Shown here one piece after another: positions 22,916 to 64,000 of a stretch of 64,000 nucleotides of DNA. The position numbers and the translations under genes are program-made. The notes below the pieces were generated by a model. The model had not been told where the DNA came from. It saw only the letters and a program-made list of their open reading frames with translations, and did no database searches. Position 1 is the stretch's first letter. Each line of letters starts with the position of its first letter. The stretch spans positions 620,001 to 684,000 of the forward strand of contig JAJCXM010000008.1 in NCBI GenBank assembly GCA_029263455.1, in the 5' to 3' direction. This stretch comes from Holophagae bacterium (GTDB taxonomy: Bacteria > Acidobacteriota > Holophagae > Acanthopleuribacterales > Acanthopleuribacteraceae).

Positions 22916-25900
22916 TTAATTTGCAGAAAGCGCATTGATGCCGCCAAGGTGGGTGCGTGGTGAGCCGTTGTTGCCATAAAGCTGAAATCCATTAATGGCA
23001 TGGTTGTCGGCCAGGACTTCGACCCAACCACCTTGAGCATAGCTGTTTGGAAATAGATCACGCATTAAGAGGCTGCGTTTGGCTTTGGCCGCCAAGTTTG
23101 CGGATTGTTCAGCTATGCGAGTCCCGTTGTCGGCATAGTGGACAAACATCAGGTCGCTGGCGGCACTGCTCAGGTTAACAACGACCAATCCAACCCAATC
23201 GTCCGCGGAATGCACACTCATGCCGAACTGCAACTTGTCGTGGGTTTGCAGGCTCCCCTGCAAACCTGCAAACACGCTATGTGGCGATTCAATTGGAGAA
23301 CCAAATAGCTCATATCCGATGATGGGGCTAGAGGTTTGGATCAGACACCAGTCACTACCGACTGGTACCAGAGGGTCCGATGAGGTTTGTGTTTGAGCAT
23401 CAACTAACAAGATCCTTTTTTCGTTCTTTTGTAGGGTTGCGGATCGTGATAGCAATAATTCTCCCTGATCGGAATAAAATAACTCTTGTGCCGATATCGG
23501 TTCAGGATTGATGTTGATATAAACCATGCCCGTCCAAAACAGAGATGTATCTTTTGCGATGTGAAGAAAAGCCAGCTCTGTGGCGGACTCACCGCTTAGT
23601 GCCAAACCCGCTACTTCGTTTTTGCCAGTTAGACGACTAAAAGTCTCGATCGCAGAGAAAGGTTGACTGGCACTGATCGTTGCCCAGTCAATATCTTGCA
23701 AATCATTACCCAACCAGAGGCGAATGTCTGCGCGTTCTTGAAAGAAACTCCGTTTTGTTCGACCTAAATCTGTTTGACGATTGTCGGCCAAAAGCTCCAA
23801 GCGGTCTATCACTCCACCTGGATTCGCAAGGCCAAGCTCTGTCAGGAACTGGTTGGTATCCTTGGCCACATGTGGCACATAGGCAATTGTTGTGGCCGCT
23901 TGGGCGCTGTAACCGTAGCGATGCTCGCTGCGTAAGACATCAACCCAAACGTTCAACGGTTGATTACTGCGTATTTGAACCCAGCGCAAGGCTTCGGGAT
24001 TGGAAAGCAAATCGGAAGCCGCTATCGAGTGGCGTTGTTTGGGACCGATTGTGATGTCGGAAGTGCCGGCCTGCTTTCCGCCTGCGGTCATGGCCAGCAT
24101 TGTGACCTCCGCATTGGTTAATGACGAAGAGTTCACGAGTATGATTTGGCTTTGATCGGTGCCCCTTACCTGGATATCGGATAGGGAATAGACATAAGCT
24201 GAGTCGGCGATCGTAGGCTCGGGAAGAGATGACAGTCGTTCCATCGAAAACGCACCATTGCCGTGACTCGCCAAAATGACCTGGTCTACTTCGGCGTTGA
24301 GCGCAAAATCAGACACTTGCAATGCTTCTGGTAGCCCATCTGGGATTGCGAACCATGTGTAACCCGCATCTTGACTCGCGTAGGCCGTAAGGTCGTTTCC
24401 TAGATAAAGAATATCCGCGTCGACGGGGTCCATGGCGACCGCGTTGCAAGGAAGCTTTGGAAGTTCACCACGCGCTAAATCCTGCCAAGTTTCGCCAGCG
24501 TCACGTGTCTCTAGGAGATGTTGGTCTTGGAAGCCAGAGAATAGGAGCAGCAGATGCCGGTCATCAGCCTCATCGATGAATAAATCGCTGGGCATGAGGT
24601 CGGGCAAATTCTGCGTGATATCTTGCCAGCTTTCACCGCCATCAGATGTGCGAAAAGCATGCATTCGGGTCGATTTTGGAGTGGTCACTGCATAGGCGGT
24701 ATCGACATCTTGAGAGGATGCCACCAGATAGCCAATTGGATTACCGTCCAATACTTGGCCTCCGTTCATGAGTACCCAATTGTCACCGCCAGTGTCCGAT
24801 CGATAGACATAATCACGGCCTGCAAATATCCGATTGGTATCGACAGTACTCATGACAAAAGGGGCAACGAAATTAGTGGAATCTTGCGTGTCGACAATGG
24901 TGCAGTTTCCATTAGGGCAGAATGGGACCGGTTTTGTATTCTCACCAGATCGGTGAAACGACCAATGATGAGGACCGTTGGTGTAGATCTTGGTTGAATC
25001 GTTGGCGTCTATAAAAAATAGTCCGGCCTCTGATCCATTGACCATCGACCACATGCCAAACGCATTCATCGTACGTGCGCCAATATCCTGCGCCGATGCG
25101 TAGAAACTCGCTTCCTTCGTCAACGCGGTACCGTTGTAAAACTGCAAAAGCTGAAAACCATCATTCCAACCTTGATAACTCTGGCCTCCATCTGTTGAAC
25201 GGGTGACCCCAAAATCGCTAGCCACGTAATAAACCTGAGGATTAGAAGGCGCGAAAGTCAGGGCATGATTGTCTACTCCTGGGTAGACATCGGCCAGGGT
25301 GCGCGTATAGAAATCCAATGTTTGGCCTGCGTTTTGAGAAGAATAAAAGTAGACGCCACCCACATACAAGTGGTCTGAATTTACGGGGTCGACCGCGGGG
25401 TAATGGGAGTACCACCCCTGAAATTCGGCAAAGTTTTGGCGGCTGACGACAATCCAGCTTTGGCCATTATCATCCGATCTCACGAGCCACGATCGCCTAG
25501 GATTTTCGGGATGCAAAAAGCCATCGTCGCCAATCGATGCGTAAAGACGATCTGGCTGCGAAGGTGCACGGTCCAAGATGATTTTTCCCATGAAGTCTGT
25601 TGGAACCGGGCTGCCGGCTTTCTGCCAGGTCAATCCGCCGTCAGATGTGTTGTATATGCCTCGTTTGTCACTGCCGAGTCCGCCACACGCAACCGCCACC
25701 GATTGCGGATTCTGCGGATGAACGGAAACACTGGTTGCCATTACCACATCCAGCTTTCGTGACCATGTGAAACCCCGGTCACGGGAAACATACACGCCCT
25801 CCGTCGTAGCAGACCAAATTGTTTGAGAGTCGTTCGGGTCAAATTCAAGGTCTTGGACGCCAGTCGTTTGTTGCAACCGCCAGTCAAGTGACATGGTCCA

Positions 25901-26512
25901 ACTGGAACCACCATCCTCGCTTTTTAGGATACCGATACCGTAACTCCCTCTACTGACCCTGGCTCCTGTGCCGCCAACTGCGCTTTCATAACCGTAAACT
26001 TCTCCAGTACCTATGAGTAGGAAATTAGAGTCGTTGGGATCAATGGCGATACTAGCCACACCCGTCACAGGGTAGCCGGTTGTTAGGCGTCGCCAATTTG
26101 CCTTGCTTTCCCCATCACTAAACCAAATTCCGCCACTAGCGGAGCCAGCAAAAACTCTATTTGAATCTTGAGGATCAACCGCTATTGCAAGCGTTCTTGA
26201 GCCTTCATTGGGGCCTAAAGCGATCCAGGCTCCATTCAATTTTTTGTTTTTTGACTTTCGACGTTTGGCTAGCCTTTCACTTGCTTCAACTAAACCCGTT
26301 CTCGCCATATGTTGAGCCGGATAAGCCCTTGATTCTTGCCAGGCGAGTAATGCCCTAAACGACTTATGTGGGCCAACGCTTAATGTAACTTCGTTCGTGG
26401 GCGGTTTGTGATCACGAGTACCAGCGATCCCCAAGGCGATCAAAACAACCATCACGCCAGCTAGAACTCTTAGGACTGATTTCTTGAGCGGGCCTATTGC
26501 TGACCGGTCCAT
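22916..26512 (-). CDS. Giant exported BNR/sortilin-like beta-propeller protein
   Basis: The 1198-residue extracellular or surface protein starts with a signal/anchor (basic start, hydrophobic residues about 15-32). Residues about 85-745 hold many BNR/Asp-box-type repeats (S.DGG..W and variants such as SEDGGSSWTM, TSDGGLTWQ, SDDNGQSW, TRDAGETWQ), giving one or more beta-propellers of the sortilin/photosystem-stability-factor kind. Residues about 755-1198 form a different region with YVPHVAKDT (about 876) and FLHIAKDT..FWTGMVYIN (about 978-995). This is shared with the partial protein at the right end of the window. No catalytic residues can be assigned; a carbohydrate- or protein-binding role is a guess. 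ATG at 26512 has AGGAG 8 bases upstream. Confidence 0.88.
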   Translation of the reverse strand: MDRSAIGPLKKSVLRVLAGVMVVLIALGIAGTRDHKPPTNEVTLSVGPHKSFRALLAWQESRAYPAQHMARTGLVEASERLAKRRKSKNKKLNGAWIALGPNEGSRTLAIAVDPQDSNRVFAGSASGGIWFSDGESKANWRRLTTGYPVTGVASIAIDPNDSNFLLIGTGEVYGYESAVGGTGARVSRGSYGIGILKSEDGGSSWTMSLDWRLQQTTGVQDLEFDPNDSQTIWSATTEGVYVSRDRGFTWSRKLDVVMATSVSVHPQNPQSVAVACGGLGSDKRGIYNTSDGGLTWQKAGSPVPTDFMGKIILDRAPSQPDRLYASIGDDGFLHPENPRRSWLVRSDDNGQSWIVVSRQNFAEFQGWYSHYPAVDPVNSDHLYVGGVYFYSSQNAGQTLDFYTRTLADVYPGVDNHALTFAPSNPQVYYVASDFGVTRSTDGGQSYQGWNDGFQLLQFYNGTALTKEASFYASAQDIGARTMNAFGMWSMVNGSEAGLFFIDANDSTKIYTNGPHHWSFHRSGENTKPVPFCPNGNCTIVDTQDSTNFVAPFVMSTVDTNRIFAGRDYVYRSDTGGDNWVLMNGGQVLDGNPIGYLVASSQDVDTAYAVTTPKSTRMHAFRTSDGGESWQDITQNLPDLMPSDLFIDEADDRHLLLLFSGFQDQHLLETRDAGETWQDLARGELPKLPCNAVAMDPVDADILYLGNDLTAYASQDAGYTWFAIPDGLPEALQVSDFALNAEVDQVILASHGNGAFSMERLSSLPEPTIADSAYVYSLSDIQVRGTDQSQIILVNSSSLTNAEVTMLAMTAGGKQAGTSDITIGPKQRHSIAASDLLSNPEALRWVQIRSNQPLNVWVDVLRSEHRYGYSAQAATTIAYVPHVAKDTNQFLTELGLANPGGVIDRLELLADNRQTDLGRTKRSFFQERADIRLWLGNDLQDIDWATISASQPFSAIETFSRLTGKNEVAGLALSGESATELAFLHIAKDTSLFWTGMVYININPEPISAQELFYSDQGELLLSRSATLQKNEKRILLVDAQTQTSSDPLVPVGSDWCLIQTSSPIIGYELFGSPIESPHSVFAGLQGSLQTHDKLQFGMSVHSADDWVGLVVVNLSSAASDLMFVHYADNGTRIAEQSANLAAKAKRSLLMRDLFPNSYAQGGWVEVLADNHAINGFQLYGNNGSPRTHLGGINALSAN

Positions 26513-26910
26513 GTTTCATGCTCCTATTTTGGTTATACTTCTTTGACCTTTGAATCAAAAGCAGCGTTTTCCAAATGTCACTGAATATCATTATTCTTGA
26601 TAAATTGATGAAATAGGCTTAAAGCAAAACGTGGGCCATGTCATAGGTACCCTCCGGGATTCGCAATAATGTTGCATGGGGCGTTCAACACTTTCCCGCG
26701 AGCAACATCCTAGAAAATACCTGCAATGGCTCTTTTCGAATTGGTCATTCAATTGCATGAAGGGATATCTAAGCGAGCGTTTCCCTAGGCTTTTGGATGA
26801 TTTCCAATGAATTCTTTATAGAATGATCAGACGTTAATGTCATGCGAACGGGACTATGTCTGCCTTTCCACTAACCGATCATTTGATTGATTGTCGATCT
26901 GCTCCGATGA
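26513..26910 (-). other. Intergenic region upstream of the BNR protein gene
   Basis: This 398-base AT-rich stretch contains a sigma-54-like promoter reading towards the BNR gene (26624-26639). No gene and no clear terminator for the membrane/TPR gene ending at 26911 were found. Confidence 0.6.
26624..26639 (-). promoter_or_regulatory. Sigma-54-like promoter for the BNR protein
   Basis: On the minus strand: TGGCCCA-CGTT-TTGCT, with perfect TTGC at -12, exact GG-N10-GC spacing and two mismatches at -24. The start is predicted near 26612, a leader of about 100 bases. Confidence 0.55.
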
Positions 26911-61584: not shown

Positions 61585-62853
61585 CTAGGAAAGTCCTGGA
61601 TAAGGCGATCGAAAGCCAAGTTTCCGATTCTCGCGCCTAACGTTCCACCAGAAAAAGGATGTCCATAAACGGGTCATCCGCGATGGCGTAAAAACGTTAC
61701 CTGCTAAGTTTGAGGCCACAGCGCGCCGAAACGCGTGAAACGGGGGATCACTATAAAAGACCTTCTGAAATCCTGGCGTGTAGTATCCGTAAATATAAGA
61801 CTTAAATCGCCTTAGACCTTGGTCTAGCCATTTTTGGTAGATATCAAACTTCTCCAAAGTAGGCGTTATGCCCGCTTTCAGTTGGTCCTCAACTAAATCG
61901 AATGCCCGCTCAGCCGAAACGGTGGACAACATCACGCCCGATGAAAAAACAGGGTCTACAAAAACCGCGGCATCTCCAATACAGAGCCAGCCATGGCCCC
62001 ATGCCGGTTGCACGCAATAAGAAAAATCAGCAACTGACGTGACATCACCTATCTGTTCAGCTCCAGCCAGTCGCTCTCGCAAAACCCGAGACTCAGCTAA
62101 GCCCTTGTGGTACATAGCGGTCAGTGAATTTGCTTGCGCCTTGATGGCTTCTTTCGTCCAAACCATGCCCACACTTACGTGATTAGCTGACAATGGGATA
62201 AGCCATGACCAAGCGCCTTCGGTTTGTATGATTTCAATATCGCCCGGTTCAGCGATAGGGCTTGCGGTGAAGCGATTGAAATAAGCATACGCGCTACTTT
62301 GATTAAGTATGGGATCGCGCTCAACGTGACTGAGCGACTTTGCCAGAAAAATGGCTCGACCAGAGGCATCAATGGTTAACGTTGCGTGGATACTGTGTTT
62401 TTCGCCCTCTGCATCTTTGTAAATAAATCCATGTACCTTGTCTTTGTCACCAACAACTTCAACCACATTGGCAGGCTGTCTGACGTCGACGCCCACTTCT
62501 TTTGCTCTTTCAACAAAGAGACAATCAAACGCCGCCCGCTCTACTTGGTAGGAATAATTTGCTTTGCATTCGAACGCGTCGCGAAAACGAATTTCTCGCG
62601 AAAATTTACTTTCTTCATGCGTAAAAACGGCACCTGGTTTCTTTTGAAAAGGGCCGTTGTCGATGCGATCAAAGAGACCGAGACGTTTGAAAAGCGGCGT
62701 GTTGTTGGGCAATAGCGATTCGCCTATTTTTTGTCTAGGGAATGTCTCGCGCTCAACAACGACCACCTTTAAGCCGGCTTGAGCTGCGAGAATCGCAAAC
62801 GTACAGCCACCTGGTCCAGCGCCAATAATCGCGACGTCAACTTTTTCGACCAT
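61585..62853 (-). CDS. FAD-dependent halogenase/geranylgeranyl-reductase-like monooxygenase
   Basis: The 422-residue flavoprotein has a Rossmann motif GAGPGGCTFA (11-20), the GESLLP segment typical of flavin halogenases and related reductases, a WSWLIPL motif (WxWxIP pattern of halogenases), and CIGDAAVFVDPVFSSGVMLS for FAD ribityl contacts. It could halogenate or oxidise a small molecule or reduce a polyprenyl chain; the class cannot be decided. ATG at 62853 follows TGAGG. It has no biosynthetic partners in the window. Monocistronic, back-to-back with the sigma-54-like promoter of the next gene. Confidence 0.8.
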   Translation of the reverse strand: MVEKVDVAIIGAGPGGCTFAILAAQAGLKVVVVERETFPRQKIGESLLPNNTPLFKRLGLFDRIDNGPFQKKPGAVFTHEESKFSREIRFRDAFECKANYSYQVERAAFDCLFVERAKEVGVDVRQPANVVEVVGDKDKVHGFIYKDAEGEKHSIHATLTIDASGRAIFLAKSLSHVERDPILNQSSAYAYFNRFTASPIAEPGDIEIIQTEGAWSWLIPLSANHVSVGMVWTKEAIKAQANSLTAMYHKGLAESRVLRERLAGAEQIGDVTSVADFSYCVQPAWGHGWLCIGDAAVFVDPVFSSGVMLSTVSAERAFDLVEDQLKAGITPTLEKFDIYQKWLDQGLRRFKSYIYGYYTPGFQKVFYSDPPFHAFRRAVASNLAGNVFTPSRMTRLWTSFFWWNVRRENRKLGFRSPYPGLS

Positions 62854-62971: not shown

Positions 62972-62988
62972 TTGGCTTGTTCATTGCA
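62972..62988 (+). promoter_or_regulatory. Sigma-54 promoter for the right-end secreted protein
   Basis: TGGCTTG-TTCA-TTGCA (62973-62988): perfect -12, exact GG-N10-GC spacing, two mismatches at -24. The start is predicted near 62999, a leader of about 150 bases. Confidence 0.65.
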
Positions 62989-63151: not shown

Positions 63152-64000
63152 ATGTATTTCAAAAACTGTGTGCTAATGGCATTAATGGCGACCGGCCTAG
63201 TCGGTTTGAGCCAATCCGATCGAACTAATCTCTATTATTTACCTGAAGTTCAGTTGGGTAATGAGTCTGATACAGCCTTCTATTTGGTTAACCCTGGTGA
63301 CATGGCCACAGGCATCGATATCTATGGATTTTCGATGGACGGCACTTCAGTCAATCAATCGACGCTGCTAACTGAGGTTGCTGGCAAGTCAAAAGTGCTG
63401 GTCATGGCATCTGCGTTGTGGCCTGAAGTGATAGATATTCATTGGGTTCAAGTCGGTTCTGACAGTGAACTTTACATCGTCGCTGAATTATTGAGTGATG
63501 GTACCAAATCCGCTTATTGGGCGGCATCTTCGCTCACCGAGTCCGCCTTTATGCCTCATGTCGCTAAGAACACAACCACGTTTTCAACCACTCTTTCTGC
63601 ATTGAATGGATCTAGCGAAGGCATCTTCACGGGTCTGCTACCTAGACCCTCAGGAGGTATCAAGACGGTTCCCGAGCACAGTATGCCATATGGTCTTGCG
63701 AAACATGATGTCCTTGATTATTGGTCAGACCTCGATCCCATTAACTGGGTGCTTCTAGAGTCAAACGCCAAAGGTTTGGCCGCGATGGAGTATTTTGATT
63801 ACATCGACGGTAATAAGCGACGCGCATCTTTGGGGCTCACCAACCAATCGGGTCGTGTATTGCGTTTTTTGCACGTCGCCACGGATACCGTGAACTTCTG
63901 GACAGGTATGGTGTACATCAACGTGGGCGACGCCAGCGCTAGCGTGACCGAAACTTACTACAACTCGGCGGGTACGGTTCTCAATAGCCGACAGTTAACG
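63152..64000 (+). CDS. Secreted protein, 5' part, sharing a module with the BNR protein
   Basis: Runs off the right edge; 283 codons are present. ATG at 63152 follows AAGGAG (6 bases). It starts with a signal peptide (MYFKNCVLMALMATGLVGLSQS) and continues as a beta-rich extracellular protein. FMPHVAKNT (near 133) and RFLHVATDTVNFWTGMVYIN (ending near 257) align with YVPHVAKDT and FLHIAKDTSLFWTGMVYIN in the C-terminal 440 residues of the 22916-26512 product, about 113-115 residues apart in both. The protein lacks the propeller repeats at its start. Function unknown. Confidence 0.85.
   Translation, partial: MYFKNCVLMALMATGLVGLSQSDRTNLYYLPEVQLGNESDTAFYLVNPGDMATGIDIYGFSMDGTSVNQSTLLTEVAGKSKVLVMASALWPEVIDIHWVQVGSDSELYIVAELLSDGTKSAYWAASSLTESAFMPHVAKNTTTFSTTLSALNGSSEGIFTGLLPRPSGGIKTVPEHSMPYGLAKHDVLDYWSDLDPINWVLLESNAKGLAAMEYFDYIDGNKRRASLGLTNQSGRVLRFLHVATDTVNFWTGMVYINVGDASASVTETYYNSAGTVLNSRQLT

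Follow-up and report, generated by a model that had tools for sequence, protein, structure and literature searches.

A tetrad of predicted ASRT/ASRAH-type β-sandwich units carried by many exported proteins in Acanthopleuribacteraceae

Introduction

As described by De Souza, Iyer and Aravind (2009; PMC2739507), the ASRAH superfamily is built on an eight-stranded sandwich whose strand 1 opens with a Trp, and has as its hallmark an almost absolute Asn closing strand 2. Solo forms are tetramers and secreted ASRAH domains occur as dyads or tetrads: the secreted dyads were found in actinobacteria, and secreted, amidase-fused tetrads in Chloroflexi (Roseiflexus). Sugar binding was predicted for the superfamily in a cleft whose lining comes from strand 2, and H25 of TM1070 contacts a bound ethanediol in the crystal. 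SHExxC is the cleft signature of the ASRT-like subfamily, other subfamilies having residues of their own. Acidobacteria are not mentioned in the text of that paper. Since DNA binding and looping have been reported for the Anabaena ASRT protein (PMC8660804), the ASRT superfamily has no one established ligand.

The window analyzed here is a 64,000-nucleotide stretch from a Holophagae bacterium of the family Acanthopleuribacteraceae. In a preliminary description, two of its proteins, one with a BNR propeller and one at the right end, were said to share the motifs PHVAK(D/N)T and FLH(I/V)A...FWTGMVYIN within a new module. This module is real and widespread, and its scale in the lineage is striking. 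The fold is already known, and the family is nameless in the libraries searched.

Results and Discussion

Two copies in the window

The BNR protein (1198 aa) is encoded on the minus strand at 22,916–26,512, as an open reading frame with a hydrophobic signal or anchor segment (aa ~12–31), a BNR/sortilin-type propeller and a C-terminal module. The propeller region, assigned by Pfam, covers aa ~90–750 (24,263–26,245, minus strand), with matches to Sortilin-Vps10 (2.6e-22) and PSII_BNR (3.9e-8). The four-unit, ASRAH-like module spans aa 771–1196 (22,925–24,202, minus strand), as delimited by BLASTP, profiles, the structural model and unit HMMs. Further large BNR-propeller paralogs with the module were seen elsewhere in the genome (L040:5548-9243, L021 and L023), the four units of the L040 paralog forming a divergent pair of pairs.

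On the plus strand, the gene of the right-end protein begins at 63,152 and is cut at 64,000 by the window end, so that the first 283 of its 831 residues are present (full gene, L024:5153-7648). Its layout is a signal peptide, the module, a PPC-like domain and a C-terminal region. The flavin-dependent halogenase-like or FAD monooxygenase protein at 61,585–62,853 on the minus strand (Pfam Trp_halogenase, 6.4e-27) was compared for the shared module and gave no similarity.

By BLASTP, the C-terminal ~430 residues of the BNR protein aligned with the N-terminal ~425 of the right-end protein with 28% identity over 264 aa (E 8e-27). The motifs were located where they had been described: PHVAKDT, FLHIAKDT and FWTGMVYIN start at aa 880, 982 and 992 of the BNR protein, and PHVAKNT, FLHVATDT and FWTGMVYIN at aa 135, 239 and 249 of the right-end protein. 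Their separation is nearly equal, as proposed, with the figures of 113 and 115 residues corrected to 112 and 114 from PHVA to FWTG; PHVA and FLH are 102 and 104 residues apart. A C-terminal location holds for the BNR protein, whereas in the right-end protein the unit HMMs place the module at aa 24–446, N-terminal and straight after the signal peptide.

Unit anatomy

The module consists of four tandem homologous units of ~105 aa each, with between-unit hhalign probabilities of 97–99.7; unit 3 is the closest relative of unit 4 in comparisons of unit profiles. The unit HMMs placed unit 1 of the BNR protein at aa 771–875 (23,888–24,202), unit 2 at aa 869–977 (23,582–23,908), unit 3 at aa 971–1090 (23,243–23,602) and unit 4 at aa 1086–1196 (22,925–23,257), all on the minus strand. 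Unit 2, in which a P-H pair and a T are invariant, contains PHVAKDT (23,855–23,875), and unit 3, the most conserved, contains FLHIAKDTSLFWTGMVYIN at 23,513–23,569. On the plus strand, the same HMMs placed unit 1 of the right-end protein at aa 24–129 (63,221–63,538), unit 2 at aa 124–234 (63,521–63,853; PHVAKNT at 63,554–63,574) and unit 3 at 63,833–64,000, cut by the window end, with FLHVATDTVNFWTGMVYIN at 63,866–63,922. The motifs quoted earlier thus correspond to strand 1 of unit 2 and strands 1–2 of unit 3.

Unit-specific profiles found exactly four units in 51 of 59 proteins, almost always in the order 1-2-3-4. The remaining proteins, which include the cut copy of the window and divergent members, have three or two. 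From these profiles, the tetrad thus appears to have been duplicated and moved as a single block. Among the 59, the tetrad mostly ends no more than 5 aa from the C-terminus. It is N-terminal or internal in the group of the right-end protein (L024, L093, L102, L097, L100, L103 and L113, ~380 aa following), in L035/L114 and in L034; across these architectures 230–714 residues follow it.

In an alignment of 36 rows, P118, H119 and T129 of unit 2 and H222, W231 and N238 of unit 3 (model numbering) are invariant, and conservation is highest in unit 3. The final Asn of strand 2 is present in 35, 34, 36 and 35 rows for units 1–4, respectively. Trp occurs in the strand-1 stretch in 0, 4, 2 and 7 rows of the same units; the likely equivalent of the ASRAH strand-1 Trp is mostly Leu or Ile, with Trp as a minority in units 3 and 4.

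Fold of the module

AlphaFold2, given the BNR module of the window and 35 relatives, returned a confident model (mean pLDDT 93.6, pTM 0.91) whose nearest solved family is ASRT/ASRAH. With the whole module as query, five ASRT-family PDB entries were at the top of the solved-structure search and the next, unrelated entry had Z 6.1. TM1070 (1nc7) superposed on unit 4 (model residues 326–436) with Z 13.7 and rmsd 2.7 over 108 of 116 residues. The Anabaena ASRT entries gave Z 10.4–10.8, one of them on unit 1 (2ii8, Z 10.8, model residues 10–96). Foldseek also matched the module model to 1nc7 (prob 1.00, target TM-score 0.75).

As one domain can fill a structure-match listing, a separate model was made of unit 2, whose sequence is the least ASRT-like (pLDDT 89.9). 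This model again matched 1nc7 (Z 11.7) and the ASRT entries (8.8–9.1), with the next entry at 5.0. The predicted models of units 1, 4 and 2 all show an eight-stranded β-sandwich of ASRT topology. An extracellular tetrad of ASRT/ASRAH-type sandwich units is thus, at the level of prediction, a well-supported description of the module. Matches to complement, pilins and other sandwiches (Z <6.2) were set aside as reflecting a common arrangement.

Profile comparison with the ASRT alignment by hhalign gave probabilities of 71 for unit 1 and 77.9 for unit 3, against no more than 1.2 for these units in 30 column shuffles; units 2 and 4 gave 0.3–15, short of significance. A PDB sequence search with the module or its profile yielded no significant match, ASRT appearing at E 0.41. 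Weak matches to FlgD_ig, Big_15 and FxLYD were set aside as generic sandwich similarity.

Relation to described families

The module resembles ASRT/ASRAH (PF07100; 1nc7, 2ii7) in its sandwich fold and in the strand-2 Asn, and its four units recall both the homotetramer of ASRT and the secreted tetrads of PMC2739507. Unlike ASRT, it is extracellular, has its four units in one chain and is joined to peptidases or propellers. The ASRAH strand-1 Trp is mostly replaced by Leu or Ile, and SHExxC by [FW]-W-T-G; the His and Cys of the cleft are substituted. PF07100 had no match in a search of the genome. The amidase tetrads of Chloroflexi (Roseiflexus, PMC2739507), likened here by their description, are also secreted and also combine four tandem ASRAH units with a hydrolase, but differ in phylum and in catalytic partner.

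The best Pfam match in 13 of 36 and in 11 of 19 members was DUF5719 (PF18986; best E 6.4e-8), which is probably, by our inference, the actinobacterial ASRAH dyad family. The window module scored 12 bits, below the cut-off of 26.2, and one protein of the same genome (L027) passed it with 26.7; DUF5719 matches span parts of one or two units and not the whole tetrad. A distant relationship of the module to DUF5719 is suggested by these mostly sub-threshold matches.

The view that the module lacks a named domain was borne out, in that neither window copy reached a Pfam or NCBIfam cut-off, NCBIfam giving no match at all to them, and the tetrad points to a domain model absent from Pfam. Novelty at the level of fold was not upheld: the structure comparison identified an ASRT/ASRAH-type β-sandwich, and there is the mostly sub-threshold relation to DUF5719. 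Since the strand-1 Trp of ASRAH is generally missing, we place the module next to the described ASRAH families as a new, divergent family, and not as a plain member, on the basis of modeled fold and aligned sequence; in predicted fold and in arrangement it is ASRAH-like. The little-studied ASRT fold thereby gains an extracellular setting.

Copies, carriers and distribution

The assembly that contains the window (6.25 Mb, 40 contigs) was searched for further copies. The BNR module as query found 24 places and a profile of 19 copies recovered 75 at E<=1e-3. Complete or near-complete modules account for 20 of the 75 (E 3e-145 to 9e-68), and the other places are one to three units in additional proteins. 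These 20 copies and the BLASTP alignment exclude chance, and on sequence comparison the BNR and right-end modules are homologous; the similarity had been expected to face its test in a proper alignment and a profile search, and it held in both.

Counted from the match table, roughly 65 reading frames of the genome are carriers, and nearly all complete carriers start with a hydrophobic signal-like segment. Their Pfam partners include BNR/sortilin propellers, M12 reprolysin, M4 thermolysin, S41 and, weakly, M36 peptidases, as well as PKD, FG-GAP, LVIVD, BACON and PPC domains. M10/M66-like and C25 peptidases are added in named relatives. In a contig scan with a six-member alignment, the 19-paralog alignment being too divergent for it, the named loci came from Sulfidibacter corallicola, Acanthopleuribacter pedis and Acidobacteriota or Holophagae MAGs. 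Two small proteins near module genes (L025:22-1314 and L023:262-1740) consist of two to three units without a large partner domain.

Many copies were present in each of the six other genomes tested from the same genus or family and in each of the nine from a sister family within the class; the module was found in 0 of 25 genomes of the other family of the class. A scan of the phylum gave a match in 44 of 297 genomes at E<=1e-10, mostly partial beyond the two families. The tetrad family is thus expanded in Acanthopleuribacteraceae and the sister family, where many exported enzymes and propeller proteins have it as a single block. No relatives of the module were found in the viral contigs, phages and plasmids searched. 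One module protein came from a MAG labeled Proteobacteria (L104, DOLZORAL124_48_12). It is 97% identical to that of an Acidobacteria MAG (L098) whose sample series has a similar name, and judged by this identity the label or the binning is doubtful.

Among the relatives of the right-end protein, an M10/M66-like metallopeptidase region precedes the tetrad in L097, L100, L103 and L113, all from other genera. The right-end protein itself begins with the tetrad, and L093 groups with it against those four. Because of this order it seems to be without the peptidase part of its other-genus relatives.

Proposed role

The preliminary description had suggested a common surface, matrix or secretion function. 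Secretion is disfavored, as the chain position of the module is free, and a surface or matrix role is the best remaining reading. We infer a ligand, a site and an attachment role of the following kind. The four units would pack as one body that takes the place of the homotetramer formed by single-domain relatives. A conserved face near units 2–3, with invariant His, Trp and Thr on strands 1–2, would bind a polymer, either a glycan or one of the matrix, and so retain the attached peptidase or propeller on the cell surface, in biofilm or on degraded tissue. When residues are counted from the shared Asn, W231 falls at the position of the cleft residue H25 of TM1070; together with the invariant residues, this suggests that the predicted binding cleft is formed by the central units. 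Attachment is the likeliest role because the partners are secreted and otherwise unrelated and the module is not tied to one chain position. We consider such a glycan- or surface-binding anchor somewhat more probable than not, and it would unite about 65 secreted proteins per genome, most of them hypothetical, in one set with a common, testable attachment module.

Free chain position also bears on the idea that the module is a sorting or secretion signal comparable to the C-terminal domains of type IX cargo, which an export machine would recognize and which would afterwards be used or cleaved for surface attachment. Dozens of unrelated cargoes carry the module, mostly at the very C-terminus, and the type IX sorting domain (TIGR04183) is likewise a β-sandwich found C-terminally on many unrelated secreted proteins, including peptidases. 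Gingipains carry a C-terminal sorting domain. In an Acidobacteriota MAG (L117:1569-5678), a C25 (gingipain-family) peptidase with a propeptide and a MAM domain has a C-terminal tetrad. However, the module is made of four ~105-aa units and not of one short domain, and at least three architectures (L024-type, L034 and L035/L114) have it at the N-terminus or internally. At E<=10 the window copies gave no TIGR04183 match, as against very weak matches in 3 of the 36 rows (best E 0.046); a search of the genome for SprA was also without a match, which weighs little since the control was empty as well. Given the C-terminal, N-terminal or internal position of the module, a C-terminal secretion signal is unlikely, and we give the type IX-like reading little credence.

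A ligand-free role as structural spacer or oligomerization unit, in which a rod or assembly of sandwiches displays the catalytic or propeller part, would suit the tetrameric solo forms of ASRT (PMC2739507), the common use of tandem sandwiches as stalks and the moderate conservation per unit (mean top-residue frequency 0.40–0.54). Nevertheless, the unit number of spacers is usually variable, whereas here number and order are fixed, and the invariant polar and aromatic residues of units 2–3 favor a binding site; we regard the spacer as rather unlikely. The module might otherwise bind protein targets or substrates and give peptidases affinity for extracellular matrix proteins of animals instead of glycans. 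Peptidases are frequent among the partners, and the cultured relatives are animal-dwelling and peptidase-rich (PMC8841776). Against this, no peptidase is evident in the BNR, FG-GAP, PKD and PPC-only carriers. We know of no protein-matrix binding in the ASRT fold family, and this role is very doubtful.

Returning to the glycan- or surface-binding anchor, cultured Acanthopleuribacteraceae are reported to have no plant-polysaccharide hydrolases (PMC8841776), so its target would have to be host glycans or the bacterium's own. The tetrad carriers belong to an animal-associated bacterial family, in which dozens of secreted peptidases and propellers are suggested to act at a common location. More tentatively, the tetrad could be the fixed part of an undescribed anchoring system that recognizes a lineage-specific surface or matrix polymer and docks dozens of unrelated secreted proteins regardless of its position in the chain, a role comparable to that of dockerin or S-layer anchoring modules.

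Sigma-54-like promoter sites

Scoring of -24/-12 elements placed a sigma-54-like candidate site, TGGCCCACGTTTTGCT, at 26,623–26,638 on the minus strand, ~110 bp upstream of the BNR gene, and another, TGGCTTGTTCATTGCA, at 62,973–62,988 on the plus strand, ~163 bp upstream of the right-end gene. Outside the window, another module gene has a near-perfect site, TGGCACAAGGATTGCT, ~35 bp ahead of its start, upstream of 4268 in L039.

Sites of this type scoring at least 10 of 12 were found for 3 of 21 module genes versus 2 of 139 other open reading frames. When the two starting genes were left out, a good site remained in 1 of 19 module genes (p 0.32), and the same-genus counterpart of the right-end gene (L093) had no site scoring 9 or more. 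Sigma-54 was therefore rejected as the common regulator of module genes, and the shared promoter type proposed for the two proteins did not extend to the genomic copies, few of which have such a site upstream. Single module genes may use sigma-54.
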